Assembly (NCBI RefSeq): GCF_000242915.1
Contig: NZ_AFRZ01000001.1
Coordinates: forward strand, 1,674,001 to 1,738,000
Source of the DNA: Sulfurimonas gotlandica GD1
Lineage (GTDB): Bacteria > Campylobacterota > Campylobacteria > Campylobacterales > Sulfurimonadaceae
Direction of reading: 5' to 3'
Length of the DNA stretch: 64,000 nt
The notes below the pieces were generated by a model, which saw nothing but the letters and a program-made list of their open reading frames with translations, was not told the DNA's origin and did not search any database. This document shows positions 15,553 through 58,183 of the stretch, in pieces (the first letter of the stretch is position 1; every line of letters starts with the position of its first letter). The position numbers and the translations under genes are program-made.

Positions 15553-15942
15553 ATGGAGCATATTAGCACTGCAAATCCGTATTTTGGGGTATTCGTACTA
15601 TTTGTTGTAACATTTGGTGCATTCACAGCTACGACTATCATTGCTCGTTTAGCGAGTCGCGCTTTGGCAGCAAAAGATAGTGAAAAGATTAGACTCTCAG
15701 TTTACGAATGTGGACCAGAGGTAACTAGACAACCAAATAGAATATCACCACAGTTTTATCTATTTGCGTTACTTTTTCTACTATTTGATGTAGAGATTAT
15801 TTTTATGTTTCCATGGGCGGTAGACTTTAAGCTATTAGGTTGGTTTGGTTTTGCTGAGATGTTAATGTTTATATTACTGTTAACAATTGGATTCGTATAT
15901 GCATGGAAAAAAGGAGCACTTGAATGGCACAACATAAAGTAA
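15553..15942 (+). CDS. nuoA: NADH-quinone oxidoreductase subunit A
   Basis: Small membrane subunit of the proton-pumping arm of complex I, near the quinone cavity. 129 residues with three transmembrane helices. The conserved loop YECGPEV and the [14 protein letters not shown] helix are both present. First gene of the operon, with SD AAAGGTAGG. It overlaps nuoB by 19 bases, a sign of tight coupling. Confidence 0.96.
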
Positions 15943-16433
15943 ATTATACACAAAACGCCGGCTTACCTGTAGCACTTACAAGTATAGACAAAATCGTTAA
16001 CTGGGGTCGTTCAAACTCACTTTGGGCACTTACTTACGGTCTTGCTTGTTGTGGTATTGAGATGATGGCATCTGGTGCGTCAAGATATGACTTTGACCGT
16101 TTTGGAACAATCTTTAGAGCATCTCCTCGTCAAGCAGATGTTATGATCGTTGCTGGAACTCTTACAAAGAAACATGCAGAATTTATCAAAAGACTTTACG
16201 ACCAAATGACTGAGCCTAGATGGGTTATATCTATGGGTTCATGTGCAAATACGGGCGGTATGTTTAACACTTATGCAACTGTTCAAGGTGTTGATAGAAT
16301 TATTCCTGTTGATTTATATCTTCCTGGTTGTGCACCTCGTCCTGAGACACTTCAGTACGGAGTTATGTTATTACAGCAAAAGATTCGTGCTAACCACGCG
16401 TCTAAAGCACAAAAAGCAAAAAGGTTAATGTAA
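15924..16433 (+). CDS. nuoB: NADH-quinone oxidoreductase subunit B (cluster N2)
   Basis: Peripheral-arm subunit carrying the terminal [4Fe-4S] cluster N2, which reduces quinone. The ligand cysteines are visible: the tandem pair in ACCGIEMM, one in GSCANTGG and one in PGCAPRPE. 169 residues, typical. The start at 15924 has AAGGAG seven bases upstream inside nuoA. It ends overlapping nuoC by one base. Confidence 0.97.
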
Positions 16434-17239
16434 TGAGAGCATATACACCTAAAGATGATGTACAGGCAAAGCCGTATTACACAGACAGATTCTATAAATC
16501 TCCTCAAGTTGCTAAACATGCACCTGAGAGTGATGAAGTATTTAATGCTGATTTAGAGGCTATTAAAGCAAAATTTGAAGTACTAGATGCTTACATCCAA
16601 GTAGAGCAAATGGTAGTTTATATCAACGCTAAAGACAACTATGGTGTTTTAGAGCTTATGAGAGATGAACTAGGTTATTCTCAGCTTTCTGAGATGAGTG
16701 CTATAGACTGGCTAGCAGATAGAGGTGGATTTGAAATTTTCTACCAAATGTTAAGCATGGCTAAACGCAAGCGTATCCGTATTAAGCTTTTCATAGAAAA
16801 TGGACAGGCTGTAAACTCTGTAGAGAAACTTTTCCGTTCTGCTGATTGGTCTGAAAGAGAGATGTTTGACATGTTCGGCATCGAAGCTAACGGACACCCA
16901 TTTATGAAAAGAATCCTTATGCCTTATGATTGGCAAGGACATCCTCTTCTTAAAACTTACCCACTTCAAGGTGATGAGTTTGCTGCTTGGTATGAAGTTG
17001 ATAAGATCTATGGAAAAGAAGCTAGAGAAGAGATTGGACCTGAAATTCGTGACACTGCAAGAATTGACCGTTATGACTCACAAAGATTTGCTCGTTTAGG
17101 ACATGAAGTACCTAAAGGAACAGAGATTACAGGAAATGAGCCAAGAGTAGAGAAAAACTACCAAGAAGATAGTGGTGTGTTCTTGATTAAAAAATTAGAT
17201 AAAAAGTCATCAGTTGTTATTGATGATCCGCAAAGATAA
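16433..17239 (+). CDS. nuoC: NADH-quinone oxidoreductase subunit C
   Basis: 30-kDa-type subunit linking the hydrogenase-like module to the rest of complex I. The signature is clear in SEREMFDMFGIEANGHP and LMPYDWQGHPLLKTYP. 268 residues; the N-terminal about 60 and the tail after residue 200 extend beyond the core domain, as commonly seen in this phylum. Separate from nuoD, unlike the fused nuoCD of E. coli. Starts on the last base of nuoB. Confidence 0.95.
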   Translation: MRAYTPKDDVQAKPYYTDRFYKSPQVAKHAPESDEVFNADLEAIKAKFEVLDAYIQVEQMVVYINAKDNYGVLELMRDELGYSQLSEMSAIDWLADRGGFEIFYQMLSMAKRKRIRIKLFIENGQAVNSVEKLFRSADWSEREMFDMFGIEANGHPFMKRILMPYDWQGHPLLKTYPLQGDEFAAWYEVDKIYGKEAREEIGPEIRDTARIDRYDSQRFARLGHEVPKGTEITGNEPRVEKNYQEDSGVFLIKKLDKKSSVVIDDPQR

Positions 17240-17250
17240 GGTGGTAAAAT

Positions 17251-18492
17251 ATGGCACAAATAAAAAATAGATTAACACCGTTTTTTGAAAATATCACTTT
17301 TGATAGAGATGACAATGAACTTATCCTAAACTTTGGTCCTCAGCATCCATCTGCTCACGGTCAGTTACGTTTAATGCTTCACCTTCAACAAGAGCAAATA
17401 GTAAAGGCTCATCCTGATATTGGGTACCTTCACCGTGGTATGGAGAAGATGGCTGAGAACATGATTTACAATGAATTTATGCCGACAACTGACCGTATGG
17501 ATTATATTGCTTCATCTTCAAACAACTATGGATTTGCTCTATCAGTTGAGAAGCTTATCGGTTTAGAAGTTCCTCGTCGTGCAAAAGTTATTCGTATGAT
17601 GCTTCTAGAGATTAACCGTCTTATGTCTCACCTTTTCTGGTTAGCAACTACTGCTCTGGATATCGGTGCGATGACAGTTTTTCTATTCGCATTCCGTGAA
17701 AGAGAATATCTGATGGACATAATCGAAGGTTATTGTGGAGCTAGACTTACACATGCTGCTATTCGCATCGGTGGTGTACCTTTAGATGTCCAAGACAGTT
17801 TTATCTCTCAGTTGAAAACTTTCTTAGACAAGTTACCTCAAAACATTAAAGATTATGAAGATCTTCTTGACACTAACCGTATTTGGTTAATGAGAATGGA
17901 AGAGGTTGGTACTATCTCTACTGAGATGGCACTATCATGGGGCTGTACTGGTCCTATGCTTCGTGCATCTGGTGTAGCTTGGGATATTCGTAAAGAAGAG
18001 CCGTATGAGTTATATGATGAAGTAGAGTTCAATGTTCCTTGGTCAGACAAGGGCGATAACTTCGCTCGTTACCGTATCTATATGGAAGAGATGAGAGAAA
18101 CTGCGAAGATTCTTTATCAAACAATAGATATGTATCAAGAGTGTGTTAAAAATGGAGAAACTGAGCTAATGGCTCACGCTCCAAAATATGTATCAGCTCC
18201 AAAGCTTGATATCATGACACAAAATTACTCTTTAATGCAGCACTTTGTACTTGTAACACAAGGTATGAGACCTCCTGTTGGAGAAGTTTATGTAGCAACT
18301 GAATCACCAAAAGGTGAGCTAGGTTTCTTTATTAACTCTCAAGGTGGACCATACCCATACAGACTGAAGCTTCGCGCTCCGTCTTTCTGGCATACAGGTA
18401 TTTTAACTGACTTACTTCCTGGACACTATATCCCGGATGTTGTATCGATTATTGGTACTACAAATATTGTATTTGGTGAGGTAGATAGATAA
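17251..18492 (+). CDS. nuoD: NADH-quinone oxidoreductase subunit D
   Basis: 49-kDa subunit forming the quinone-binding pocket with NuoB. It has [14 protein letters not shown] near residue 29, with the quinone-head His, GYLHRGMEK and the C-terminal GEVDR end. 413 residues, normal. The SD-like AAGGTGG precedes the ATG. It overlaps the next small gene by one base. Confidence 0.97.
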
Positions 18493-18716
18493 TGAAAAGA
18501 TATGATTTAAGACACTTAAAAACTGAGTTCGAACCTAGAATGAAAGAAATTCTTGGAACTCACAGTGCAGGCGAAGTAGCAATCTTTTTATTTGAAATTG
18601 GAGATTTTACTCCGATTCAAAAATCAGCAGATTTAGTAAAAGAGTGTGGTTATGAGTTGATGAACTCTTTAAAGTTTAACGAAGTCGATTGGACTATCGT
18701 AGCAAAAAAAGGTTAG
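18492..18716 (+). CDS. Small NuoE-replacement subunit of Campylobacterota complex I
   Basis: 74 residues in the nuoE position but unrelated to NuoE: no cysteines of a [2Fe-2S] thioredoxin-like domain and less than half the usual length. It resembles the short protein at the same operon position in Helicobacter and Campylobacter (HP1264/Cj1575c type, recalled, not searched), which begins similarly and ends in a DWTIV stretch. It overlaps nuoD by one base and precedes the flavoprotein by nine. Probably couples the electron-input protein to NuoG; the exact role is unknown. Confidence 0.75.
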   Translation: MKRYDLRHLKTEFEPRMKEILGTHSAGEVAIFLFEIGDFTPIQKSADLVKECGYELMNSLKFNEVDWTIVAKKG

Positions 18717-18725
18717 GAATTAATT

Positions 18726-20720
18726 TTGAGTAAAGTATATTTTTCTACTTGGAATGGTGAGCTGGTCAATAACGTCGGCAAACCTCAAGAAGAGTGGGAA
18801 GAATCAGCTTATAATCTACCTGCAACTTACGATGATCATCGTGACTCAAAAGCCTTTATCGGCTGGGATGGTGTTTCACTGTTCAATGAGGACGTTGACG
18901 TAATCCGTTTAGCTATGGAATATGCTGCGCAGTACCAAGTGTACTCAGAAGCTTGTGGAAGATGTGCACCTGGAAGATGGGGTGGACGTATTCTATATGA
19001 CCAACTAGATAAGATTGCTCGTGGTGAAGGTGCTATAGCTGATATGGACCACTTAAAAGAGATCGGTAAAAGTATGCAAATCACTTCAAAATGTGAGATT
19101 GGTAAAACTGTTCCAAATCCTATTATTGATTTAATGACTCATTTTGAAGATGAGTTTATGGATTGTATAAACAATCAAAAACCGTCTAAACACTATAACG
19201 ATGAAGTTGGTTATATTGCAAAAATTACAGCACCTTGTACTGATATGTGTCCTGCACATGTTGACATCCCAGGATATATAGAGGGTGTAAGAGATTTAAG
19301 ATTTGATGATTCTCTTCAAGCAACTCGTCAAACAATGCCTTTAGCTCATGTTTGTGGACGTGTTTGTCCTCACCCATGTGAAGATGCTTGTAGAAGAACA
19401 AATCTTGATGAGCCTATTGCTATCATGGAGCTTAAGCGTCTTGGTGCAGATTATGAAACAGATCATGGTTTTGGTTTTTTTCATCCAATGGAAAAACAAC
19501 CAAGCAATGGTAAAAAAGTTGCAGTTATCGGTGCAGGTCCTGCAGGTTTAACTACAGCTTATTATCTTGCTGCTGAGGGGACTCAGGTTGATGTTTTTGA
19601 AGAGCTTCCAGTTCTTGGCGGTGAAGTTGCAGTTGGAGTTCCTGAATATAGAATGCCGATTGACAAATACAATCAAGACATAGAATGTGTAAGAGATATG
19701 GGTGTTAATTTTATAACTAACACTAAAATCAATGCAGATGATATGAGAAGATTTGAAGCTGAGTATGATGCAACTATGGTTGCAACAGGTACTCGTATCT
19801 CAAAAAAAGTTCATTGTGATAATGAAAGACCTGAAATCGAAGGTTACTGGTCAGCTATCGAGATGTTAGATCAGATCAATCTTTGGGATAAGTATGAAAT
19901 TGGTGAAGCAGTAGACTTAACAGGTAAGACAGTTGTTTGTGTTGGTGGAGGATTTACATCTATGGATGTTGTTCGTTGTTCAATTAGAGCAAATGCTAAA
20001 AAAGTTTATATGATTTACCGTCGTGATGAGCAAACAATCATCAGAAATACGACCTATGAAGAGTATCATGAAGCAGTAGAAGAGGGTGTTGAATTCCTTT
20101 TCCACTCAGCTGTAAATACTATGGTTGATGAAAATAATGTTTTAAAATCACTTCTTATTGATAAATTTGAATTAGTACCAGATCCAGATGGTGGACGTCC
20201 TAGTTTAGAAAAAGTCGAAGGTGCTTCTTATACTATAGAAACGGATTTCTTAATACCGGCAGTTTCTCAGTCAGCAGATCTTGCTCTTTTGCCTAAAGAG
20301 TGGGAAATGGAAATGACATCTTGGGGAACTATTAAGACAAATGGTAAAGACTATATGACATCTCGCAGAGGTATTTTTGCATCTGGAGATTGTGAATATG
20401 GTCCGATGACTATTGTTAATGCAGTTGGTCAAGCTAAGCGTGGCGCATCTGTTATGTCAAGATTCATGCAAACTGGTGAAATATCTCTTACTGATGATGA
20501 GATTATGGAAGATCATCTTCGTAAACTAAAGGTTTATGATAAGAAAGAGAAAGTTGAAGGTTGGCTACCTGGCTTGCCAAGACAAGAGAGTGAGAAACTT
20601 GGGGTTGATGTTCGTAAAGATAACAACAGAGAAGTTAACTTAGGTTTCACACAAGAAGAAGCGATGAATGAAGCTGATCGCTGTATGCGTTGTTACTACA
20701 TCGCAATGATAGCAACATAA
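18726..20720 (+). CDS. GltD-like FAD/NAD(P)H oxidoreductase fused to a NuoF-type cluster domain (replaces NuoF)
   Basis: 664 residues, TTG start seven bases after AGGA. Residues about 45-145 align with the C-terminal cluster domain of NuoF: C77 and C80, but G83 where the third ligand Cys should be, then C123. The FMN/NADH-binding domain of NuoF is absent. Residues about 165-240 are the GltD N-terminal iron-sulfur domain (C171, C175, C210, C214, C218, C222). The FAD motif GAGPAG is at 269-274, a second dinucleotide motif GGGFTSMD at 407-414 followed by an IYRRDE stretch as in NADPH enzymes, and a terminal CMRC at 653-656. By position it is the electron-input module; the donor may be NADPH or a ferredoxin-type carrier. 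It resembles SfrB/GltD/NfnB-type flavoproteins. Confidence 0.85.
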   Translation: MSKVYFSTWNGELVNNVGKPQEEWEESAYNLPATYDDHRDSKAFIGWDGVSLFNEDVDVIRLAMEYAAQYQVYSEACGRCAPGRWGGRILYDQLDKIARGEGAIADMDHLKEIGKSMQITSKCEIGKTVPNPIIDLMTHFEDEFMDCINNQKPSKHYNDEVGYIAKITAPCTDMCPAHVDIPGYIEGVRDLRFDDSLQATRQTMPLAHVCGRVCPHPCEDACRRTNLDEPIAIMELKRLGADYETDHGFGFFHPMEKQPSNGKKVAVIGAGPAGLTTAYYLAAEGTQVDVFEELPVLGGEVAVGVPEYRMPIDKYNQDIECVRDMGVNFITNTKINADDMRRFEAEYDATMVATGTRISKKVHCDNERPEIEGYWSAIEMLDQINLWDKYEIGEAVDLTGKTVVCVGGGFTSMDVVRCSIRANAKKVYMIYRRDEQTIIRNTTYEEYHEAVEEGVEFLFHSAVNTMVDENNVLKSLLIDKFELVPDPDGGRPSLEKVEGASYTIETDFLIPAVSQSADLALLPKEWEMEMTSWGTIKTNGKDYMTSRRGIFASGDCEYGPMTIVNAVGQAKRGASVMSRFMQTGEISLTDDEIMEDHLRKLKVYDKKEKVEGWLPGLPRQESEKLGVDVRKDNNREVNLGFTQEEAMNEADRCMRCYYIAMIAT

Positions 20721-20733
20721 GGGAGGGGGATAT

Positions 20734-22977
20734 ATGAGTGATTTAATTAGTTTTAAAATTGACGGTATCTCTGTAGAAGCTAAAAAAGGCGAGACTATTT
20801 TAACAGTAGCTCGTAAAAATGATATCTACATCCCGACAATGTGTTATATCTCTAAAACTACACCATGTGCATCTTGTCGTATGTGTGTGGTAGAGGCTGA
20901 GGGAGTTGAAGGTTTTGTACTTTCTTGTAATACTCCTCCAACTGAGGGTATAGAGATTACAACTAATACAGCAGAGTTAGAGGCTGAACGTACAAATATT
21001 ATGAAGCTTTATGATGTTAATCATCCATTAGAGTGTGGTGTTTGTGACAAGTCTGGTGAGTGTGATCTACAAAATAAAACTTTAGAGTTTAATGTTGGCA
21101 GACAAAACTTTTCTGCTCGTGATCAATCACGTGAGATTAAAGATTGGGGATTGATTAATTATGACCCATCTCTATGTATTCTATGTGAGAAGTGTGTTCA
21201 TGTATGTAATGAAGTAATCGGTGACGATGCTATTGATGTTCAATTTGGTGGATATAGTTCAACAATAATTCCTAAAAATTCGGATGTTCTTGATTGTACT
21301 TTCTGTGGAGAGTGTATTGCGGTATGTCCGGTTGGTGCATTAGTGAGTTCAAACTTTAAATATAGTGCAAATGCTTGGGAGCTTAGTCGTGTACCTGCTA
21401 CATGTGCTCACTGTTCTGCAGGTTGTTCTTTAGAGTATGAAACAAGACATTCAGGAATCAATGGTAATGATGCTATTTATAGAGTAAAAAATAACTTTGA
21501 GTATACATCGCTTTGTGGCGCGGGTCGTTTTGGTTTTGACTTTGATAACAAAGAGACTAGAGATGAATCAGCATTTCATAAAGCTGTTGAAGCCCTAAAA
21601 GAAGCAAAAGCTATTCGTTTTTCTTCAATGATTACAAATGAAGAAGCTCATATCTTACAACTTTTAAAAAAGAAGTTTGATATTAAGTTATTTAACGAAG
21701 ATGCAAGAAAATTTCAAGAGTTTATGAAATCATATAGCAGTGTAAGTGGAAAATTACACCATAGTGGTTCTCTAGATGCAATCAAGCAATCAGATGCTGC
21801 AATAGTGATTGGAAGTAGAATTTCTACTGACAATCCTGCTGTGAGATATGCTCTTACAACAGCAGCTAAACATAATGGTGCTAGAATAGTTTATGCTCAT
21901 CCGATGGAAGATGCCCTAATGCAAAACACTGTTACTCAACTTATGAAATATGAAGTTGGTACAGAAGAAGGTGTAATGGCACTTTTAGCAAACGCAATTA
22001 TTGGTAGTGCTGATCTTTCTGATGATGAGAGAGCATTTTTTAACGACTTAGATTTAGGTTATCTTGCTGCTGAGAGTAATATCGGTGATGAAGAGATAGC
22101 TCAAATGATGAAGTCATTTTCGAGAGCAAAAAATCATGTATTGATAGTAGGTAATGACCTAATAGCGCATGATCGTTCAGAAAATATTGCAAAACTTGCA
22201 GCTATGATAGAGAAATATAGTTCGTTTTCTTTGGTAGTTGTTCCAAGTGAAGTAAATACTCTTGGTGCATCTCTGATATGTGATTTAGATATTGATGAAG
22301 ATATAATTGATGTAGTAGGTTACAACGCAAAAGGTAATTTTATTATCTCATCACTGCCATTTGCAAATTTAGCAGTACCATCTCTAAACCAGCAAGAGGG
22401 AACTTTTGTTAATGTAGATAACAAAGTACTTCCAACAAATGTTGCTGTTAGCTTTGATGGTTACTCACTAAATGATGTTGCTTCAGCTTGTGGAGTTAGT
22501 AGTGCTAACACAATTGATTATACTAAAGAGTTAAAGCAAAGTGCTGGTTTTAAAAATATAGGTTTTGATGACTTAGAAAACTATCTATCTCCTTATGGTG
22601 ATGATAATAGAGGTTACTTACTTGATGAAGTAACATGCGATACTAATGGTAAACTTGATGAAATTGATGATTTACCAGAATTCAATGGTACAATTATATA
22701 TCATGCAAACCCAGTTCTACAGTTTAACGCTTACACAAATCAGGCTGCACAACTAGAGCGTGACTGTACACTTAGAGGTTCAGCTCAATTCGCAGCAGCT
22801 GCAAAAATCTCTGATGGAGACAAAATTGAAATTACTTTTGGATCTAAGTCTGTAATAAGAGAGTTTAAACTTGATAGTGAGCTAAAAGGGACAATAGCAT
22901 TAAATCCTACATTTGATGATGTGGTAGATGCTAGTAGATATAGATTTGAAAAATCCAAAATAGTGAGAGTAGTATAA
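20734..22977 (+). CDS. nuoG: NADH-quinone oxidoreductase subunit G, first copy
   Basis: 747 residues. The N-terminal [2Fe-2S] region has C37, C45, C48 and C65. Cluster N5 is seen as H97, C101, C104, C110. Two four-cysteine motifs follow (C148/C151/C154/C158, then CTFCGECIAVCP). Next comes the molybdopterin-fold domain with its own cluster motif CAHCSAGC plus LCGAGRFG (N7 type). The C-terminus ends in a beta-rich segment near LKGTIALNPTFDD. Preceded by AGGGAGGGG. Its stop overlaps the next nuoG as TAATG. It carries electrons from the input module to NuoI. Confidence 0.92.
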   Translation: MSDLISFKIDGISVEAKKGETILTVARKNDIYIPTMCYISKTTPCASCRMCVVEAEGVEGFVLSCNTPPTEGIEITTNTAELEAERTNIMKLYDVNHPLECGVCDKSGECDLQNKTLEFNVGRQNFSARDQSREIKDWGLINYDPSLCILCEKCVHVCNEVIGDDAIDVQFGGYSSTIIPKNSDVLDCTFCGECIAVCPVGALVSSNFKYSANAWELSRVPATCAHCSAGCSLEYETRHSGINGNDAIYRVKNNFEYTSLCGAGRFGFDFDNKETRDESAFHKAVEALKEAKAIRFSSMITNEEAHILQLLKKKFDIKLFNEDARKFQEFMKSYSSVSGKLHHSGSLDAIKQSDAAIVIGSRISTDNPAVRYALTTAAKHNGARIVYAHPMEDALMQNTVTQLMKYEVGTEEGVMALLANAIIGSADLSDDERAFFNDLDLGYLAAESNIGDEEIAQMMKSFSRAKNHVLIVGNDLIAHDRSENIAKLAAMIEKYSSFSLVVVPSEVNTLGASLICDLDIDEDIIDVVGYNAKGNFIISSLPFANLAVPSLNQQEGTFVNVDNKVLPTNVAVSFDGYSLNDVASACGVSSANTIDYTKELKQSAGFKNIGFDDLENYLSPYGDDNRGYLLDEVTCDTNGKLDEIDDLPEFNGTIIYHANPVLQFNAYTNQAAQLERDCTLRGSAQFAAAAKISDGDKIEITFGSKSVIREFKLDSELKGTIALNPTFDDVVDASRYRFEKSKIVRVV

Positions 22978-25464: not shown

Positions 25465-26451
25465 ATGGAAACAGCATATTTAATTGAAACGGTTATAAAA
25501 ATCGTTGTAGTTTTACTTGTATTTTCTGCACTTGCGGGGATAGGAACTTACTTTGAACGTAAAATTCTTGCATTTATGCAGCGTCGTCTTGGACCAATGT
25601 ATGTCGGTCCTTATGGATTATTACAAGTTGCGGCAGATGGTGTAAAACTATTTACAAAAGAGGATATTATCCCAACTAACGTAGTAGCTCCTATCTTTAA
25701 GATAGCACCGGTTATCACTGCTGCTACAGCATTTATGGCTGCTGCTGCGATTCCATTTTTACCATCGTTCACGATTTTTGGATATGAAGTTCATCCAATA
25801 GTTGCGGACATTAATATTGGTATATTATATATTCTTGGAATCATGGGTGTTGGTCTTTATGGTCCTTTACTTGGTGGTATGGCTTCAGCTAATAAGTTCG
25901 CTTTACTATCTTCTGCTCGTGCTGCTGCTGTATTTATCTCTTATGAGGTTGTTACAGGATTATCTATCTTAGCTCCGATTATGATGGTTGGCTCATTATC
26001 ACTTATTGATTTTAATGAGTATCAAGCAGGTGGAATTACAGATTGGATTGTATGGACTCAACCAGTTGCATTTGTTCTATTTTGGATAGCTGCTTTTGCT
26101 GAGACAGGTCGTACTCCATTCCATTTAATTGCTAATGATCATGAGATTATTGATGGTTTTGGTACTGAGTATTCTGGTATGAGATGGGGACTTTTCTTCA
26201 TTGGTGAGTATGCAAATATGTTCTTTATATCATTTGTAATACCTTTATTATTCTTAGGTGGTTACGGTGATGGAAGTCTTCTTGGTGCACTAGGATTACT
26301 TGGAAAAATGGCATTTTTCTTCTTCTTTTTCTTATGGACAAGAGCTGCTTGGCCAGATGTTAGACCGGATCAACTGATGTGGTTATGTTGGAAAGTATTA
26401 ATGCCAATCGCAGTTTTAAACATCTTAATTACTGCAATAGTATTGATGTAA
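25465..26451 (+). CDS. nuoH: NADH-quinone oxidoreductase subunit H
   Basis: Membrane subunit joining the peripheral and membrane arms and forming the quinone tunnel mouth. 328 residues, about eight transmembrane helices. ERKILAFMQRRLGP near the N-terminus and EYSGMRWGLFFIGEYANM are diagnostic. The loop that normally reads PFDLPEaEsEL is here PFHLIANDHEI, with several of the acidic positions changed. It begins three bases after the stop of the second nuoG remnant. Confidence 0.95.
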   Translation: METAYLIETVIKIVVVLLVFSALAGIGTYFERKILAFMQRRLGPMYVGPYGLLQVAADGVKLFTKEDIIPTNVVAPIFKIAPVITAATAFMAAAAIPFLPSFTIFGYEVHPIVADINIGILYILGIMGVGLYGPLLGGMASANKFALLSSARAAAVFISYEVVTGLSILAPIMMVGSLSLIDFNEYQAGGITDWIVWTQPVAFVLFWIAAFAETGRTPFHLIANDHEIIDGFGTEYSGMRWGLFFIGEYANMFFISFVIPLLFLGGYGDGSLLGALGLLGKMAFFFFFFLWTRAAWPDVRPDQLMWLCWKVLMPIAVLNILITAIVLM

Positions 26452-26458
26452 GGGGGTA

Positions 26459-27076
26459 ATGATGAAAAATGAACAATTTAATAACAGAGATTTTTCTAAT
26501 GAATACTTTTTAGTAGGCATTGAAGATTATCCGACTGACCCATGGGGTAAGTTTAAGAGAGCAGTTAAGAGAACATTCAGAGGCGAGCTATTTGTTGGTC
26601 TTTGGGTTGTTATGCGTGAAATGATTAGATTTGATATTCACACTGTACAGTACCCAGAAGAGAAGATGCCAATAGGTCCAAGATATCGTGCAGTGCATGA
26701 GATGAAAAGACTATGGGAATCAGATGCTGAAAGATGTATCGGTTGTGGACTTTGTGAGAAGATCTGTATTTCTAACTGTATAAGAATGGAAACAAAAATT
26801 GATGAAAATTCTCGTAAAGAAGTTAGTGAATATACAATTAACCTTGGTCGTTGTATTTTTTGTGGCTATTGTGCTGAAGTTTGTCCTGAGTTAGCGATTA
26901 CTCATGGTGGCGAGTATGAAAACGCATCTGATCAAAGAGAGCATTTTGTTGACTATGCAGCAATGTTAACACCACTGGATAAAATGAAGGCCGGAACTCA
27001 AGTTGAGTTTGAAGGTTTTGGTGCTATCACACCACATGAAGATGAGCGTGTTAAAAAAACACCTCTCTCATATTAA
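26459..27076 (+). CDS. nuoI: NADH-quinone oxidoreductase subunit I (clusters N6a/N6b)
   Basis: Eight-iron ferredoxin subunit passing electrons to NuoB. The two motifs are CIGCGLCEKICISNC and CIFCGYCAEVCPELA. 205 residues; a longer N-terminal arm and acidic C-terminus than E. coli NuoI. The ATG at 26459 is followed by another at 26462; the SD AGGGGG at 26451-26456 leaves 2 or 5 bases, so 26462 may be the real start. Confidence 0.95.
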   Translation: MMKNEQFNNRDFSNEYFLVGIEDYPTDPWGKFKRAVKRTFRGELFVGLWVVMREMIRFDIHTVQYPEEKMPIGPRYRAVHEMKRLWESDAERCIGCGLCEKICISNCIRMETKIDENSRKEVSEYTINLGRCIFCGYCAEVCPELAITHGGEYENASDQREHFVDYAAMLTPLDKMKAGTQVEFEGFGAITPHEDERVKKTPLSY

Positions 27077-27087
27077 GGAGTTTGGGT

Positions 27088-27663
27088 ATGTTTGAAGCGA
27101 TTGCTTTTTATTTGTTTGCTTTTCTGACTATAGCGATGTTTTACATTACTGTAACAACATCACAGGCGTTATATGCTCTTACAGCATTAGCAGCAGGGAT
27201 GATTTTTATATCAGCATTTTTCTTTATTCTGGGTGCTGACTTTTTAGGTGCGGTACAGATCGTAGTTTACTCTGGTGCTGTAATGGCCCTTTATGCATTT
27301 GGTATGATGTTTTTTGATACAACTAGAGAAGTTAAAGAGAAAAATGGAAATAAGTATCTTGTTACTGGTTTAGCTACTATCTCTGCAATTTTAGTTGTTT
27401 TAATTTTTGCCGCTCCAATTGTTGGAGACAATATTACAGCTCTTTATCCTGTGACTGAAGGTGCTGGAAATACTCAAGAAATAGGTATAGTCCTTTTCAC
27501 CAAGTACTTAGTTCCTTTTGAACTTGCAGCAGTTATGTTACTTGTAGCTATGGTTTCAGGTATTGTTTTAGCTGGTAAGAAAATGGATCTATCTCTTACT
27601 CTTATGAGTGATGCTGAGATTACAGATATGAAAAAAGAAATAAATAAAAAGGTACTTTCATGA
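27088..27663 (+). CDS. nuoJ: NADH-quinone oxidoreductase subunit J
   Basis: Membrane-arm subunit with five transmembrane helices. GADFLGAVQIVVYSGAVMAL contains the TMH3 segment known for its pi-bulge in complex I structures. 191 residues. The start is taken as ATG at 27088, seven bases after AAGGAG; the in-frame TTG at 27082 would overlap the SD. Its stop overlaps nuoK. Confidence 0.95.
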   Translation: MFEAIAFYLFAFLTIAMFYITVTTSQALYALTALAAGMIFISAFFFILGADFLGAVQIVVYSGAVMALYAFGMMFFDTTREVKEKNGNKYLVTGLATISAILVVLIFAAPIVGDNITALYPVTEGAGNTQEIGIVLFTKYLVPFELAAVMLLVAMVSGIVLAGKKMDLSLTLMSDAEITDMKKEINKKVLS

Positions 27664-27968
27664 TGGAAATAGGACTTAACCACTATCTTGTACTTTCTAC
27701 AATTTTATTCGCTATTGGTTTAATAGGTGTAATGAGAAGAAAGAACCTTCTAATGCTGTTTTTCGCAACTGAGATATTACTAAACTCTGTAAATATTGCT
27801 TTTGCTGCGATTTCACATTATTACGGTGACCTTACTGGTCAGATGTTTGCATTCTTTGTAATTGCAATCGCTGCTTCAGAAGTTGCTGTAGGACTTGGTT
27901 TATTAGTTGTTTGGCATAAACGCCACAATAATATTGACCTAGATTCAATGTCAACGATGAGAGGATAG
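27660..27968 (+). CDS. nuoK: NADH-quinone oxidoreductase subunit K
   Basis: 102 residues, three transmembrane helices. The MFFATEILLNSVNIAF-like helix holds the conserved membrane Glu, and a second Glu lies in AASEVAVGLGLLV; both are proton-channel residues. It starts inside the end of nuoJ (ATGATG; either ATG possible) and is followed by nuoL after four bases. Confidence 0.96.
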   Translation: MMEIGLNHYLVLSTILFAIGLIGVMRRKNLLMLFFATEILLNSVNIAFAAISHYYGDLTGQMFAFFVIAIAASEVAVGLGLLVVWHKRHNNIDLDSMSTMRG

Positions 27969-27972
27969 AAAT

Positions 27973-29895
27973 ATGGAAATATTACTATATACAGCACTAT
28001 TTTCACCACTAGTAGGCTCTATGTTTGCTGCACTGTTTGGTGCATCTCCAAAGACACTTGTTACTGGTGTAGTTACAAGTGCTCTGCTTGGTTTATCACT
28101 TATAGCTAGTACAATACTTTTAGTTTTTGTACTTACAAGTGGGCAACATGTACAAGTAGAAATGATGACATGGATGGCTACTGGTGATCTTTATATCCCT
28201 TTTGGTTTTATAGTTGATCAGGTAAGTGTAACTATGATGATGGTTGTTACATTAGTTTCGACTGTCGTACACGTTTACGCTATAGGTTATATGGATCACG
28301 ATAAAGGGTTTAACCGTTTCTTTGCTTGGTTATCAGCATTCGTTTTTTCAATGATGGTTCTTGTAATGAGTGATAACTTTGCTGGTCTTTTTATTGGTTG
28401 GGAAGGTGTTGGTCTATGTTCATGGGGACTAATCGGTTTCTGGTACCACAAAGAGAGTGCTACTTGGGCAGCTAATGAAGCGTTCATTATGAACCGTATT
28501 GCTGACCTTGGTATGCTTATCGGTATCTTTCTTGTTTATTGGAACACTGGTACACTTCAGTACCACGAAGCTTTTGCAGCAATGCCAGGTTTAGATACTG
28601 ATGTACTTACTTGGATGGGTATCTTCTTATTTATTGGTGCAATGGGTAAATCAGCTCAGTTTCCACTTCATACTTGGCTTGCAGATGCGATGGAAGGTCC
28701 TACTCCAGTATCGGCACTTATTCACGCAGCAACAATGGTAACAGCTGGTGTATACTTGGTTGTACGTTCAAACGAGTTATACAGTCTTATTCCAAATGTT
28801 GGTCTTTTTATCGCTAGCCTTGGAGCATTTGTTGCAATCTTTGCAGCGACAATGGCCCTTGTTAATCGTGATATAAAAAGAGTTATCGCTTACTCTACTC
28901 TATCTCAGTTAGGTTATATGTTCGCAGCAGCTGGTCTTGGTGCTTACTGGGTTGCACTTTTCCACCTTATGGCTCACGCATTCTTTAAAGCACTACTATT
29001 TCTTGGTGGTGGTAATGTTATGCATGCAATGCATGATGAGCTTGATCCGTTTAAGATGGGTGGTCTTGGTAAGACTATGAAGGGTACAATGGTTCTTATG
29101 ACTCTTGCTTCTGTTGCACTTGCAGGTATTTTTCCTCTTGCAGGTTTCTTCTCAAAAGATTTAATCTTAGAGGTTGCATTTGTAGATCATCACTTTATCA
29201 TTTACACAGTTTTACTACTTACTGCCGGTTTAACAGCATTTTATTCATTTAGAATTATTGCTCTAATCTTCCATGGTGAAGATCGTCACACAGCTTTAGG
29301 TTTTCATCCACATGAAGCTTATAAGTTTATGCTTGTTGCAATGACTCCACTGTTAATCTTAGCAATAATCGCAGGTTCATTCAAAGGAACTTATTTTGAT
29401 TATGTAACAATGATTCTTCCAGGAACAGAGTATCACGTACATTCAGCAGCAACATACTGGATTATGACAATAGGTACTCAACTATTTGTTATTCTTTCTA
29501 TTGCGTTTGCATATAAAAAATACATGAGCAAAGATATCAAAGTCCCAGACGGAACAAGTAAAATGGAAAATAGCTTTAAATATAAGTTACTAATTAACCA
29601 GTACTATATTCCATATTTTTATGAAGAATATCTTACGAAGCCATATAGAGAACTATCTACAGTTTTATGGAAACAGGTTGACCAGAAAGTTGTAGATGCA
29701 ACTGTAGATGGAATAGCAAATATATTCTATGCAACAGGTGAAAGTACAAGAACAATGCAGAGTGGTAACTTATCTACAATGCTTAAGTGGATGGTAGCAG
29801 GTGCTGTTGCCTTGTTATCACTAGCTGTTGTTTTTGGACTAGCAGTTAGACATTCTGATGAAATTAAAGCAATTTTATCAGGTTTAGGAGTTTAA
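27973..29895 (+). CDS. nuoL: NADH-quinone oxidoreductase subunit L
   Basis: Distal antiporter-like proton-pumping subunit with the long lateral helix at its C-terminus. 640 residues. Conserved stretches: GWEGVGLCSWGLIGFWYH, PTPVSALIHAATMVTAGVYL, and KRVIAYSTLSQLGYMF with the pumping Lys. C-terminal residues after about 520 form the extended arm. Standard order within the operon. Confidence 0.97.
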   Translation: MEILLYTALFSPLVGSMFAALFGASPKTLVTGVVTSALLGLSLIASTILLVFVLTSGQHVQVEMMTWMATGDLYIPFGFIVDQVSVTMMMVVTLVSTVVHVYAIGYMDHDKGFNRFFAWLSAFVFSMMVLVMSDNFAGLFIGWEGVGLCSWGLIGFWYHKESATWAANEAFIMNRIADLGMLIGIFLVYWNTGTLQYHEAFAAMPGLDTDVLTWMGIFLFIGAMGKSAQFPLHTWLADAMEGPTPVSALIHAATMVTAGVYLVVRSNELYSLIPNVGLFIASLGAFVAIFAATMALVNRDIKRVIAYSTLSQLGYMFAAAGLGAYWVALFHLMAHAFFKALLFLGGGNVMHAMHDELDPFKMGGLGKTMKGTMVLMTLASVALAGIFPLAGFFSKDLILEVAFVDHHFIIYTVLLLTAGLTAFYSFRIIALIFHGEDRHTALGFHPHEAYKFMLVAMTPLLILAIIAGSFKGTYFDYVTMILPGTEYHVHSAATYWIMTIGTQLFVILSIAFAYKKYMSKDIKVPDGTSKMENSFKYKLLINQYYIPYFYEEYLTKPYRELSTVLWKQVDQKVVDATVDGIANIFYATGESTRTMQSGNLSTMLKWMVAGAVALLSLAVVFGLAVRHSDEIKAILSGLGV

Positions 29896-29898
29896 TAG

Positions 29899-31452
29899 AT
29901 GTTAGATAATATTTTATCGATTTTAATTTTCTTTCCAGCTGTAGCAGGTATATTTGGCTTCGCAGTTCAAAAAGACAGTATCCGTGCTTATGGTGTTTCT
30001 GTAGCATTCATTGAGTTTGCTTTATCTTTAATGTTATGGTTCTCATTTGATTCAAATGTATCTGGGATGCAGTTTATAGAAACACTTCCACTGATTCCGT
30101 CATTTGGAATTAACTATATTTTAGGTGTAGATGGTATTTCACTATTTATTATTATACTAGCAGCATTCTTTACATTAATCGGTATAGCTTCACTTACTGA
30201 TACTAAAGATGTAAAAAATATGATTATCACACTTCTGTTTTTACAGATGACTATGGTAGGTGTATTTGTTGCTTTAGATGCTATCGTGTTTTATGTGTTT
30301 TGGGAGTTATCTCTTGTACCGATGTTATATATCATTGGTGCGTGGGGCGGACCACTTAGAATTTACGCTTCAGTAAAATTCTTCCTATATACATTTACAG
30401 GTTCTCTAGTAATGCTAGTTGGTATGCTTTTTATGGCATATTTCTACTACCAAGCAACTGGTACTTGGAGTTTCGCAATCTTAGATTGGTATCGTCTGAT
30501 TTTACCTGAGACTTTCCAATTATGGTTATTCGTAGCATTTTTCTTTGGTTTTGCAATCAAAGTACCAATGTTTCCATTCCATACATGGTTACCATATGCT
30601 CACGGTCAAGCACCGACTATCGGTTCTGTAATACTAGCGGCGATTTTACTTAAAATGGGTACGTATGCGTTTATCCGTTTTTCACTGCCAATGTTCCCGG
30701 ATGCTGCAGTGTTTTTCATGTTCCCAATAGCAGTTCTTGCTATTATCATGATTGTTTACACAGCAATGGTTGCATACGCACAAGAAGATGTAAAACAAGT
30801 TGTTGCTTACTCTTCAGTATCACACATGGGTGTTATCATTCTTGGTACATTCGCTCTTAACGTTGAAGGTATCACAGGTTCAATCTTTTTAATGATTGCT
30901 CACGGAGTTGTATCTGGGGCACTGTTCTTACTTGTAGGTGTTATCTATGACAGAAGACATACTAAGATGATGAGTGAGTTTGGAGGTCTAGCATCTGTTA
31001 TGCCAAGATTTGCAACTATCTTTGGAATAATGATGATGGCTTCAGTTGGTCTTCCACTTACAATCAACTTTGTTGGTGAGTTTTTAAGTCTTCTTGGATT
31101 CTATCAGCAATCACACATCTTAACTCTTCTAGCAGGTCTTGCTATTATTGTTGGTGCTATTTATATGTTAGCAGCTTATAAAAAGATGTTTTTTGGTGAA
31201 GTTACAAATGAGAAAAATAGAAATCTTCCAGATGTAAACAAAAGAGAACTTATCGCATTGGTTCCTTTAGTGATTATTACAGTTTGGTTAGGTATTTATC
31301 CTAAACCATTATTAGGACCGATTAACAACTCAGTAGAGTCAGTTGTTCAACTAATGCACGATAAATCTATAACTGATGAAGCTAAATCTAGAATTCCTAA
31401 CCTTATAGACGGTGTTAAGATTACTAGAACTTCAGCGCAGGAGGCACACTAA
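29899..31452 (+). CDS. nuoM: NADH-quinone oxidoreductase subunit M
   Basis: Middle antiporter-like proton-pumping subunit. 517 residues. Contains [18 protein letters not shown], with the conserved Glu of TMH5, [20 protein letters not shown], and [14 protein letters not shown]. It begins three bases after nuoL and shares its last base with nuoN. Confidence 0.97.
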
Positions 31453-32960
31453 TGTTAGAGCCAGTAAATGTTTCATTGGAGTCATTAAATTTAATGACTC
31501 TTGCACCAATGTTGATTCCTATCATCGGTGCGTTATTAATCTTAGTTATTGATATTATCAAAGGTGGCTTAGATAAAACTCTGTATGTAATGATAAGTAT
31601 TCTTTTCTTACTACTAGACTTAGGTGCTATTGCAGAGACTGCAGGTCAGTTTACTGCAGGTGGCACTATTATGGGTGTGTTTGATGTAATGTTAATAGAT
31701 GGTTTAGCGATACTTTCACAATTAATTATTGTTGGAGCATCTTTACTATTTATTCCATTAGCATTAACTCATAAAAGATTCCATGAATTCTCTTATCCAG
31801 AGTTTTTCGCACTATTCTTATTTATGCTTGGTGGTTTCCAGTTTATGGTTGCAACAGACAACCTGATCTTAATCTTTGTTGGATTAGAAACAGCATCTTT
31901 AGCACTATACACAATGATTGCAATGCATAACCGCGATAAATCATTTGAAGCAGCAGTAAAGTACTTTACAATGGGTGCATTAGCAGCTGGTTTCTTTAGT
32001 TTCGGTGCAATGGTATTTTATGCACTGACTGGTTCTGTAGAGATTAATCAAATCGCTGCAGTATTAGGAGGAAATGGTTTTGCTGATATGGGCTTTGTTC
32101 TTGTAGGTGTTGTATTTGTTTTAGCTGCACTTGGGTTTAAACTTTCACTAGTGCCGTTTCATACTTGGGCGCCTGATGTTTATGAAGGTTCTTCTGCATC
32201 ACTAGCTGGATTTATGTCTATTGTCCCTAAAATAGCAGTATTTATTGTTGCTATGAGAATGTTTGAATTTTTAATTCACAGTGGCGTAGTTTGGTTAGAG
32301 ATAGTTCTTTATATAGTTGTTGTTGTAACAATGACAATGGCTAATATTTGGGCACTTGTTCAAACAGATGTAAAGAGAATGCTAGCTTATAGTTCGATTT
32401 CACACGCTGGTTTTGTAATGGCTGCTATTTTAATAGGTACCACTCAATCAAACAGTGCACTTTTTCTCTACTGGATTGTATTTAGCTTTACTAACTTAGG
32501 TGCATTTAGTATGCTTTGGATTTCTCGTCAGAAGCATCTTCCAGACCACCAAAGTTCAGACCATAGTTATAATAAATTTTCTGGAATGATTCAAACAGCA
32601 CCTGTTGCTGCAACAATCATGGGACTTTTCATGCTAAGTTTAGCTGGTCTTCCTCCATTTGCACTGTTTTGGGGTAAACTATATATGATATCTTCTGCTG
32701 TAACAGGTGGATATACAGTATTAGCTCTTATTATGGCACTTAACTCTGCAATAGCAGGTTACTACTACTTAAAACTTATAGTTTATATGTTTATGAGAGA
32801 GCCTGTAATCAATAAAGACGGCCATGTATTTGTAGCAAATGCAACAACTCCACTGAGAACTATCATTGGTTTTGCTGCTGTGGGAACTATTTTTGCTTTT
32901 CTAGCTATAAACCCTGTACTAGAGTTTATTACTGCTTTAGTATTTAAAAGTGGATATTAA
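31452..32960 (+). CDS. nuoN: NADH-quinone oxidoreductase subunit N
   Basis: Third antiporter-like proton-pumping subunit. 502 residues, about 14 transmembrane helices. [34 protein letters not shown] and [17 protein letters not shown] mark the family. Last nuo gene. Only 38 bases separate it from the TPR gene and no terminator stem is seen there, so the operon may continue. Confidence 0.97.
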
Positions 32961-56452: not shown

Positions 56453-58183
56453 GTGAATATATTACTTTTAAATGATAATCCAGTAGTTACAAAACTAGTA
56501 ACACTTAGTGCACAAAAAACTTCTGATGAACTAGATATTGTTAGCAGTGTTGAAGAAGTAGAAGCTGGAACTTACGAATTATTTGTATTAGATGATACTC
56601 TTTATAGTGAAGAAATACTAAATGAGATAAAAGAAAAAGTAAAATTTAGCAAGTCATTATATATATGTTCACGCGATGCCCAAGAAGTAGAGGGGTTTAC
56701 AGCGACATTAAGAAAACCATTTTTACCAACTGACCTAGTTGAACTTTTTGCTAGTTTAGGTAAAGACGCAACTACAATCGATTTAGGAACTGATGAAGAA
56801 GAATTAGACTTAACTGACTCCTTAGAAGAAGTAATAGATGATAGTGAACTTTTAGAGTTGGCTGATGATGATATTGAAGAGCTTGGTGAGTTAGGTGATA
56901 TTGATGATTTAGACGACCTTGATGACATGGATATGGACTTAGACTCTGAACTTGGGGAAGAATTAAATTTGGAAGAAGATGCAGAAGAGTTAGATGGACT
57001 TAGTCTAGATGATGAAGAAGAAGATCTTGACGACATGGATTTAGATTTAGGTGATATTTCACTTGAAGATGATGAAGAAATCGATGAGCTTTCTTTAGAT
57101 GATATCGATTTAGGTGAAAGTGTTTTAGACAAAGATGAATTACAAGAGGTGCAAGATCTTTTGGAAGAGACAGAAGACAACACGGAAGAGTTATTCTCAG
57201 ATAACATTAATGATGAAGAGCTTGATGATATGGACTTAGGGGACTTAGACTTAGAAGATGATTTAGATATTGACGACTTATCACTAGACGATGAGGATAA
57301 TAAAAAATCTGTTGACGATGCTATAAGTGATGAGTTAGAAAATATTGAAGAAGATTTGGACTTAGACATGGACTTAGGAGATGACACTGATCTTGATGAT
57401 CTATCTTTAGATGATGATTTAGATCTCGATGGCTTATCACTGGATGATGATGAGACTGAAGAAGAAGTTAAAAAAGCAAGTCCAGAAGAATTGCCTGAAG
57501 ATGAGATAAGTGATGAAGATGAAAGTCTTGATGAGATGGACTTAGGGGATTTAGACTTAGATGACGATGACGATGATTTAAATATTGACGACTTGTCATT
57601 GGATGATGAAGAAGAATCTCTTGAAGAAGTGAACACAGATGAGTTAGACGAAGCCGAAGAAAATAATGAAGAAGAAGAAAGTCTTGAATCAGAAGCGATT
57701 GCTGAAGAGTTGGATTTTGAAGATGAGCTAGACATTAGCGATGACTTAGAAGCAGAAGAAGAATTTAACATTGATGATATCAGCGATGAAGAATTAGAGA
57801 GTAAGATAGAAAGTGCTGTTCTTGAATTAAGTGATGAAGACTTAGAAAGTGAACTTGATGAGGATACACTTTTAGATATAGCTGTGAGTGATATTAATGG
57901 GCTAGAGTCATTAAATACAAGAGATATAAAACTTGCAATTGGTGAAGAAGTTGGAGATGAAGAAGTAAATACAGATGAATTGGATGAAGTTGAAATTACA
58001 GAAGATGTAGATCTTGAAGAGTTAGGTGAAGTAGAAACTATTTCAAAAGATACAGAAATCACGCCTGACAACGACGGTGTAGAATCATTGAAAAAATTAT
58101 TAGCAGCACTTTCAAATGAAGACGTGGTAGCTTCTATGAAGGGCATGAAGATAAATATAAATATAACATTAGGTGACAAATAG
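56453..58183 (+). CDS. Highly acidic repeat protein with receiver-like N-terminus
   Basis: 576 residues, GTG start after AAAGGA. Residues 1-105 look like a response-regulator receiver (NDN near the start, VLDDTLY at the Asp site, LRKPF lysine-proline). Residues about 110-500 are D/E/L/S low complexity with six LSLDD units, often inside a longer MDLGDLDL..DD..IDDLSLDD pattern. The last 35 residues form a distinct end (SLKKLLAALSNEDVVASMKG). Position before gmk-tatA-argS matches the poly-E-rich protein of Helicobacter pylori (HP0322, recalled). Function unknown; link to flagella by context only. Its stop overlaps gmk by one base. Confidence 0.75.
   Translation: MNILLLNDNPVVTKLVTLSAQKTSDELDIVSSVEEVEAGTYELFVLDDTLYSEEILNEIKEKVKFSKSLYICSRDAQEVEGFTATLRKPFLPTDLVELFASLGKDATTIDLGTDEEELDLTDSLEEVIDDSELLELADDDIEELGELGDIDDLDDLDDMDMDLDSELGEELNLEEDAEELDGLSLDDEEEDLDDMDLDLGDISLEDDEEIDELSLDDIDLGESVLDKDELQEVQDLLEETEDNTEELFSDNINDEELDDMDLGDLDLEDDLDIDDLSLDDEDNKKSVDDAISDELENIEEDLDLDMDLGDDTDLDDLSLDDDLDLDGLSLDDDETEEEVKKASPEELPEDEISDEDESLDEMDLGDLDLDDDDDDLNIDDLSLDDEEESLEEVNTDELDEAEENNEEEESLESEAIAEELDFEDELDISDDLEAEEEFNIDDISDEELESKIESAVLELSDEDLESELDEDTLLDIAVSDINGLESLNTRDIKLAIGEEVGDEEVNTDELDEVEITEDVDLEELGEVETISKDTEITPDNDGVESLKKLLAALSNEDVVASMKGMKININITLGDK

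Follow-up and report, generated by a model that had tools for sequence, protein, structure and literature searches.

The 64,000-nucleotide stretch of Sulfurimonas gotlandica GD1 analyzed here (contig NZ_AFRZ01000001.1, positions 1,674,001 to 1,738,000; hereafter the window) carries an operon for complex I in which the nuo genes follow the order A, B, C, D, nuoX, a fusion gene, nuoG1, nuoG2, and H to N (Table 1). The fusion gene encodes a protein that joins the C-terminal cluster domain of NuoF to a GltD-type iron-sulfur flavoprotein, and together with nuoX it accounts for the two open reading frames (ORFs) that the original prediction had placed between nuoD and nuoG. The names of nuoA-D and nuoH-N are those we presume from gene order. 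The order A-B-C-D-X-fusion-G1-G2-H is shared by relatives from several families, and we therefore reject chance or an annotation artefact as its explanation.

A complex I operon without NuoE and NuoF

Textbook accounts usually present complex I as an NADH enzyme. With the canonical bacterial form (E. coli, Thermus), the operon in the window shares nuoABCD, nuoG to N, and the C-terminal domain of NuoF; it differs in having no NuoE, no FMN/NADH domain, and two NuoG. That NuoE and NuoF are missing from the operon, with a GltD-like flavoprotein in their place, was borne out by the ORFs, by the domains, and by a profile search of the whole genome, which is a single contig of 2.95 Mb. When this genome was searched at E <= 0.001 for a nuoE/nuoF pair elsewhere, neither the NuoF FMN/NADH domain (PF01512, positive in 9 of 14 control genomes) nor the NuoE thioredoxin-like [2Fe-2S] domain (PF01257, positive in 7 of 14) had a match, so that both markers of the canonical N module were lacking. 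PF01512 was found in 59 of the 298 Campylobacterota genomes sampled and in 15 of the 81 that carry the fusion.

The small protein had been described as cysteine-free, which was wrong: it has one Cys (VKECGYEL), outside the conserved columns of the NuoX alignment. It cannot be regarded as new either, because it matches PF16514 and the H. pylori protein HP1264 (PDB 2lxr). A match to an NCBIfam type III effector model (E 0.0074, 15.3 of 715 bits) was disregarded. PF16514 is present in 242 of the 298 genomes, and its location directly after nuoD marks the window's operon as a NuoX-type complex I of Campylobacterota. According to a review, HP1264 has no conserved cysteines and was identified by fluorescence and NMR as a protein that binds FMN (PMC6269979).

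Table 1. Coordinates of the nuo genes and of the fusion's domains and motifs, in window positions.
Feature	Position	Strand	Evidence
nuoA, B, C, D	15553..18492	+	ORFs; order kept in relatives
nuoX, 74 aa, one Cys; position of HP1264 / Cj1575c	18492..18716	+	PF16514 E 8.9e-37; PDB 2lxr E 4.3e-20
fusion, 664 aa, TTG start: NuoF C-terminal cluster domain + GltD/NfnL-type Fe-S/FAD/NAD(P) enzyme	18726..20720	+	domains, structure matches
fusion residues 1-155, NuoF C-terminal (N3-type) domain	18726..19190	+	PF10589 E 6.7e-19; HydB, NfnB, NuoF chains, best E 6e-18
modified N3-site motif CGRCAPG, residues 77-83, Gly83 for third Cys	18954..18974	+	77/77 sequences
Cys123-Glu124, final N3-site Cys and invariant Glu	19092..19097	+	both 77/77
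Fer4_20 domain, Cys 171, 175, 210, 214, 218, 222	19227..19466	+	PF14691; each Cys 77/77
FAD and NAD(P)H domains, residues 263-570	19512..20435	+	PF07992; matches Nfn-ABC, NfnI, GOGAT small subunit, DPD
nucleotide-site stretch, GGGFTSMD and YRR, residues 405-433	19938..20024	+	both 77/77
C-terminal Cys653-x-x-Cys656	20682..20693	+	77/77
nuoG1, 747 aa, extra NuoG accompanying the fusion	20734..22977	+	NF006305 E 1.1e-278
nuoG2 first part, 682 aa	22977..25025	+	NF006305
nuoG2 second part, 138 aa	25045..25461	+	after frame changes
nuoH, I, J, K, L, M, N	25465..32960	+	ORFs; order kept in relatives
aa, residues; GOGAT, glutamate synthase; DPD, dihydropyrimidine dehydrogenase.

Domains and conserved ligands of the fusion

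The predicted succession of a NuoF C-terminal-type part, a GltD-type iron-sulfur part, an FAD part, and an NAD(P)H-type part was confirmed by three Pfam matches, all above cut-off: PF10589 at residues 73-145 (68.0 bits against a cut-off of 23.5, and matched by all 16 members of alignment A1), PF14691 at residues 168-247 (E 2.6e-24), and PF07992, Pyr_redox_2, over the residues given in Table 1 (E 5.6e-26). The fusion thus has the Fer4_20 domain and the FAD/NAD(P) Rossmann pair of the GltD/NfnL fold. It stays below the curated GltD cut-offs (268.9 of 471.75 bits for TIGR01316 and 242.5 of 482.95 for TIGR01318) as well as the curated NuoF cut-off, and therefore neither name fits. An AlphaFold2 model of the protein reached a predicted local distance difference test score (pLDDT) of 87.0 and a predicted template modelling score of 0.86 at best, the other four models having pLDDT values of 72.8-84.2. 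Its top structural matches were 9bov_A (Z 44.4, root mean square deviation (rmsd) 2.4 over 468 aligned residues) and 9n5v_A (Z 43.4, rmsd 3.5, 481 residues) from Nfn-ABC and 8oh5_C (Z 42.6, rmsd 2.5, 469 residues) from StnABC. The GltD-containing chains of Nfn-ABC and StnABC ranked first, followed by the GOGAT small subunit, NfnI, and DPD, with Z from about 33 to 44.

These bifurcating transhydrogenases (9bov, 9n5u, 8oh5), the closest solved folds, resemble the present system in bringing together a subunit of the GltD type, one that resembles NuoF, and parts that resemble NuoG. StnABC, however, was purified as a soluble three-subunit enzyme with NuoF-like and NuoE-like subunits (PMC7483475), whereas here only the C-terminal domain of NuoF is found, fused to GltD within a complex I operon, and the NuoF-like FMN subunit of the Nfn/Stn enzymes has no counterpart in a genome without a PF01512 match. 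The fusion shares its Fe-S/FAD/NADPH body with GltD, NfnL, and DPD but differs from GltD-type enzymes in the attached NuoF domain and in the location of one Cys pair, which is C-terminal here and N-terminal in 4ylf_B. No GltB-like partner was recognized in the operon.

Ligand conservation was examined in 77 non-identical sequences, the window's included, drawn from 89 fusion ORFs (G031, G036, and G284 lie outside this set, and the ORF of G199 ends at a contig edge). Eleven ligand cysteines are invariant in all 77: Cys 77, 80, and 123 in the N3-type site and the eight of the GltD-type part, Cys 171, 175, 210, 214, 218, 222, 653, and 656. The N3-type site reads CGRCxPG, with Gly83 in place of the third Cys throughout the set. 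Three aligned solved chains of the HydB/NfnB type have CxxCxxC and a Gly after the last Cys, where all 77 fusions have Glu124. The NuoF C-terminal-type cluster domain of the original prediction is therefore present, but one of its four cluster N3 ligands is not. Since the rest of the site is frozen, it would seem to hold an altered cluster rather than to have lost one. Cys653 and Cys656, whose counterparts in the alignment are a C-terminal motif in the Nfn-ABC chains 9bov_A and 9n5u_A and an N-terminal one in 4ylf_B, are putatively taken to complete the first GltD-type cluster.

Two further cysteines are invariant in the 77 sequences, residue 405 (19938-19940), which belongs to the nucleotide domain's first strand, and residue 556 (20391-20393), part of the motif GDCEYGP. 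In seven loci of family f2 (L031-L036 and L081), the fusion is longer, at 724-962 residues, with an insertion between its NuoF-C and GltD halves that comes to about 60-300 residues in L031-L036.

The two NuoG proteins and the distribution of the fusion

The Cys sets of NuoG are those that we take to be the ligands of N1b, N4, N5, and N7. Among 58 NuoG1 sequences, the eleven Cys at N1b-, N5-, and N4-type positions are invariant, the ferredoxin-like set is present in 48-49, and the N7-type set in 57-58. The same sets are invariant in 73 NuoG2 sequences (a flanking Cys 41 in 71), all of which have the ferredoxin-like set, while the N7-type set occurs in 54.

Gene content was compared in the 75 of 110 loci that are complete from nuoX to nuoH, of which the 20 without a fusion were hand-picked, not randomly drawn, from NuoX-positive genomes lacking a strong fusion match. 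A NuoG1 of at least 668 residues accompanied the fusion in all 55 complete fusion operons, while all 20 picked loci had a NuoY-like protein of 231-339 residues in the place of NuoG1. This protein aligned to residues ~328-750 of NuoG1 (hhalign probability 100, E 4e-55; E 7e-21 against NuoG2) and therefore has no Fe-S half. Note that the alignment had 21 rows, one of them wrongly included (L090, a 181-residue NuoG1 fragment), and that the stub tree uses the other 20. None of three distant examples that were scanned (L091, L096, and L103) had a Pfam family over cut-off. NuoG2 is kept with and without the fusion, and for this reason we take it to be the core NuoG.

Nine further loci, from 8 of 12 chosen genomes that appeared to be fusion-less (G353 gave no match; the set does not include G315, G331, or G335), had no fusion after NuoX. 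Five of them carried a NuoY-like stub (L192, L195, L196, L197, and L199), two a shortened NuoG1 (L193 and L194), and two no NuoG1 (L191 and L198). In L193 and L194, NuoG1 begins near residue 216-220, so that the N1b, N5, N4, and ferredoxin-like Cys are lost while the N7-type region is kept. As separate observations, the operons L191, L193, L194, and L198 come from the same genus as the window and are in different states, with NuoX and NuoG2 kept, and genome G208 has two separate nuo loci (L197 and L199), each with NuoX and a NuoY-like stub.

Among the mapped loci, no operon has lost the fusion and kept a full NuoG1, nor the reverse. This co-loss supports, without proving, a single functional module. 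In a quite improbable reading, the fusion would be a separate soluble oxidoreductase of the GOGAT or Nfn kind that is only cotranscribed with the nuo genes. Its main body does have the GltD/NfnL fold, but a NuoF-derived cluster domain is attached to it, it adjoins NuoX and precedes NuoG1 in the mapped fusion operons, a long NuoG1 accompanies it in each of the 55 complete ones, and it is not the only GltD-like match of the genome, a second and weaker one being present.

Counting matches of E 2.5e-175 or lower, the fusion is present in 81 of the 298 genomes (one of them, G199, cut by the contig end), which excludes that it is unique to the source genome. The comparison across Campylobacterota called for by the original prediction thus gives a conserved variant. 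In all, 119 genomes had some match; the other 38 had best E values of 6e-41 to 1e-54, with 28-32% identity in the weak matches listed, and are read as having GltD paralogs. The best 80 of 589 matches were all from Campylobacterota, with carriers that included Sulfurimonas, Sulfuricurvum, Sulfurovum, Nitratiruptor, Nitratifractor, Hydrogenimonas, and Helicobacter sp. 11S02629-2, and the closest fusion among them was that of a Sulfurimonas metagenome-assembled genome (91% identical). A separate search for relatives gave, among the matches listed, one order only. Alignment A2, drawn from 67 of the 80 loci with 64 and then 61 sequences kept, holds 61 other fusions that are 54-91% identical to the window's, and 61 of 72 same-genus genomes among the matches listed have a strong match to the NuoF-C part.

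When fusion or NuoY was mapped as a label on a quick tree of NuoB/D/H/I, 6 changes were needed, 5 of them forced by starred branches; on a closer tree around Sulfurimonas, which excludes the mapped loci L198 and L199, there were 4, all forced. A single inherited clade of NuoY stubs was disfavored (p = 0.0154 in the approximately unbiased test; 5 changes, 3 forced), a result that long branches make soft. The simplest reading suggested by these trees is that an ancestral fusion may have been lost several times.

Predicted electron path and its alternatives

Taken together, these features suggest that the window probably encodes a Campylobacterota-type complex I in which the place of the NADH-reading NuoE/NuoF pair is taken by a detachable NAD(P)H module consisting of the fusion and the Fe-S half of NuoG1. 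We infer the mechanism as a whole from gene content and conserved ligands. In the predicted path, electrons would pass from NADP(H) to the FAD of the GltD domain and on through two GltD-type [4Fe-4S] clusters, the altered three-Cys N3 site, the clusters of NuoG1, and those of NuoG2 to NuoI and NuoB and finally to menaquinone, with proton pumping by NuoL/M/N. The path would be reversible, with flow in either direction.

The original prediction had proposed a complex I fed by NADPH. The nucleotide site contains GGGFTSMD and Tyr-Arg-Arg in all 77 sequences, and NADPH is favored as the probable nucleotide because the invariant Tyr-Arg-Arg is common to NADPH GOGAT and NfnL-type chains, which the Phe and Ser of the preceding motif are not. 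The Arg residues at this site hold the 2'-phosphate in DPD and Nfn. This part of the proposal therefore stands as the better guess, while the loop departs from the solved chains. That the same input module uses NADH is an appreciably weaker possibility: ordinary complex I takes NADH as its substrate and the GGGFTS loop departs from the NADPH-type signature, but the Tyr-Arg-Arg shared with NADPH enzymes is invariant.

The operon was also predicted to suit an autotroph. ATP-citrate lyase (PF16114; the 76 of 81 matching genomes with E 1.3e-77 or lower were counted) has a match in the source genome and occurs in 63 of the 81 fusion genomes and 13 of the 217 others (Fisher p 8e-35, uncorrected for kinship). 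This association across the phylum agrees with the prediction. It is not strict, since the lyase had no match in 18 of the fusion genomes, 15 of which belong to family f2, and occurs in fusion-less genomes, which rules out the fusion as a strict marker of autotrophy. Lyase was present in six of seven same-genus fusion carriers examined and in five of eight same-genus genomes picked as fusion-less, the other three being G300 and G348 (81-82% complete) and G335 (operon unmapped); G208 (family f4), both of whose nuo operons are fusion-less, has it too. A search of the source genome gave no match to PntB or G6PD_N, which stand for two common sources of NADPH, or to Flavodoxin_1 (PF00258), the donor of the Campylobacter type; isocitrate dehydrogenase, ferredoxin-NADP reductases, other flavodoxin families, and ferredoxins were outside this search. 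The pattern fits a need for quinol-driven NADP+ reduction, as far as gene content can indicate one.

The donor itself may be different. It is possible, though we hold it clearly less probable than the NAD(P)H module, that the complex is ferredoxin-fed, as proposed for Sulfurospirillum, with the fusion as an attached ferredoxin:NADP+ oxidoreductase arm; electrons would then enter at NuoG1/NuoG2 and leave to quinone or NADP+. Ferredoxin or flavodoxin has been proposed as donor for Campylobacterota complex I (PMC6682613; PMC4585668), the NfnL-type subunit has sites for NADP(H) and ferredoxin (PMC7483475), and both NuoG proteins have the extra ferredoxin-like Cys set. However, fusion-less relatives retain NuoG2 with these Cys, so that a ferredoxin route does not require the fusion, and no result here points to a ferredoxin site on the fusion. 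A further and rather speculative idea is a quinone-coupled bifurcating complex I, that is, a proton-pumping, NADP-linked enzyme running mainly from menaquinol to NADP+, in which the GltD-type FAD, the bifurcating flavin in Nfn, would also use two tandem NuoG wires to split or join electrons among quinone, NADP, and ferredoxin. The probabilities attached to the rival readings are not mutually exclusive.

Several points weigh against a working NADPH-linked module of fusion and NuoG1. Because the third N3 Cys is missing, a different or weaker cluster may form the bridge between the GltD part and NuoG1. The loop GGGFTS stands where five aligned solved chains have GGG/GAG(N/D)TA, and the Met-Pro that follows YRR in those chains is absent here. 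Because the fusion gene adjoins the 5' part of nuoG1, one deletion can take both, and their co-loss is not fully independent evidence. In the window, nuoG2 is broken, the frame changing twice between ~24980 and 25045 (Table 1), whereas it is one intact ORF of 828-832 residues in three close relatives; the break may be an assembly error or a real lesion. Transfer in place of loss would be compatible with the trees, and five fusion-less Sulfurimonas genomes (G302, G305, G306, G321, and G322) keep the lyase. The lost N3 Cys, the broken nuoG2, and the absence of the module from scattered lineages would also be accounted for if it were a decaying evolutionary relic. We consider this very unlikely, however, given the ligand and nucleotide motifs invariant in 77 of 77 sequences, the identities within A2, and the strong matches to the NuoF-C part in most same-genus genomes listed.

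Known systems and significance

The complex I of Campylobacter and Helicobacter (Cj1575c/Cj1574c, HP1264) is the nearest relative in layout: its NuoX is of the same family and in the same place, NuoE and NuoF are missing, and in the 20 fusion-less loci the NuoY-place protein is a homolog of the window's NuoG1 in its C-terminal part. These operons differ from the window's in that they lack a flavoprotein and have a single NuoG with Fe-S Cys. In C. jejuni, Cj1574c (NuoY) follows Cj1575c, and the donor is reported to be flavodoxin (PMC4178425), for which the Flavodoxin_1 search described above had no match; in the window, the fusion and a full-length NuoG1 occupy the place next to NuoX. The original prediction had called the operon a different solution from that of Campylobacter and Helicobacter, but the two are not wholly separate, since they have NuoX in common, the NuoY-place protein aligns to the C-terminal part of NuoG1, and one Helicobacter has the fusion. 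A complex I of 11 subunits without an N module in Desulfitobacterium likewise has the core enzyme and receives electrons from a source other than NuoEF (PMC11238625), whereas the operon here encodes a dedicated input module.

Flavodoxin- or ferredoxin-fed complex I of the NuoX/NuoY type has already been published (PMC6682613, PMC4585668, PMC4178425, PMC11238625, PMC4794192), and in Nautilia, NuoE, F, G, and K are reported to be missing (PMC2628731). In the passages available from the open-access literature, neither the GltD fusion nor paired NuoG was mentioned, nor was NuoY described as a stub of NuoG. This covers a Sulfurimonas review (PMC4584964), papers on Arcobacter (PMC4584990 and PMC2147049), Sulfurospirillum (PMC11406935), and Chloroflexi (PMC5736913), a phylum comparison (PMC5401914), and a Sulfurovum transcriptome (PMC10045233); the S. 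denitrificans genome and C. jejuni complex I papers fall outside this coverage, and an earlier mention there is possible. As far as could be checked, the operon represents a real, conserved, and new variant of complex I.

If the proposal of an NAD(P)H module is true, the NADH unit of complex I was swapped for an apparently NADPH-type flavoenzyme that was seemingly dropped repeatedly, which would speak to the modularity of the complex. It would also suggest an identity for NuoY, a puzzling protein in Campylobacter and Helicobacter, as the stub that remains of a reduced NuoG, and it would point to how vent and sulfur-oxidizing bacteria may make NADPH.

Elsewhere in the window, two antisense ORFs overlap, at 56453-58183 on the plus strand (576 residues) and 56602-58179 on the minus strand (525 residues), neither of which matches Pfam at E 1e-5.

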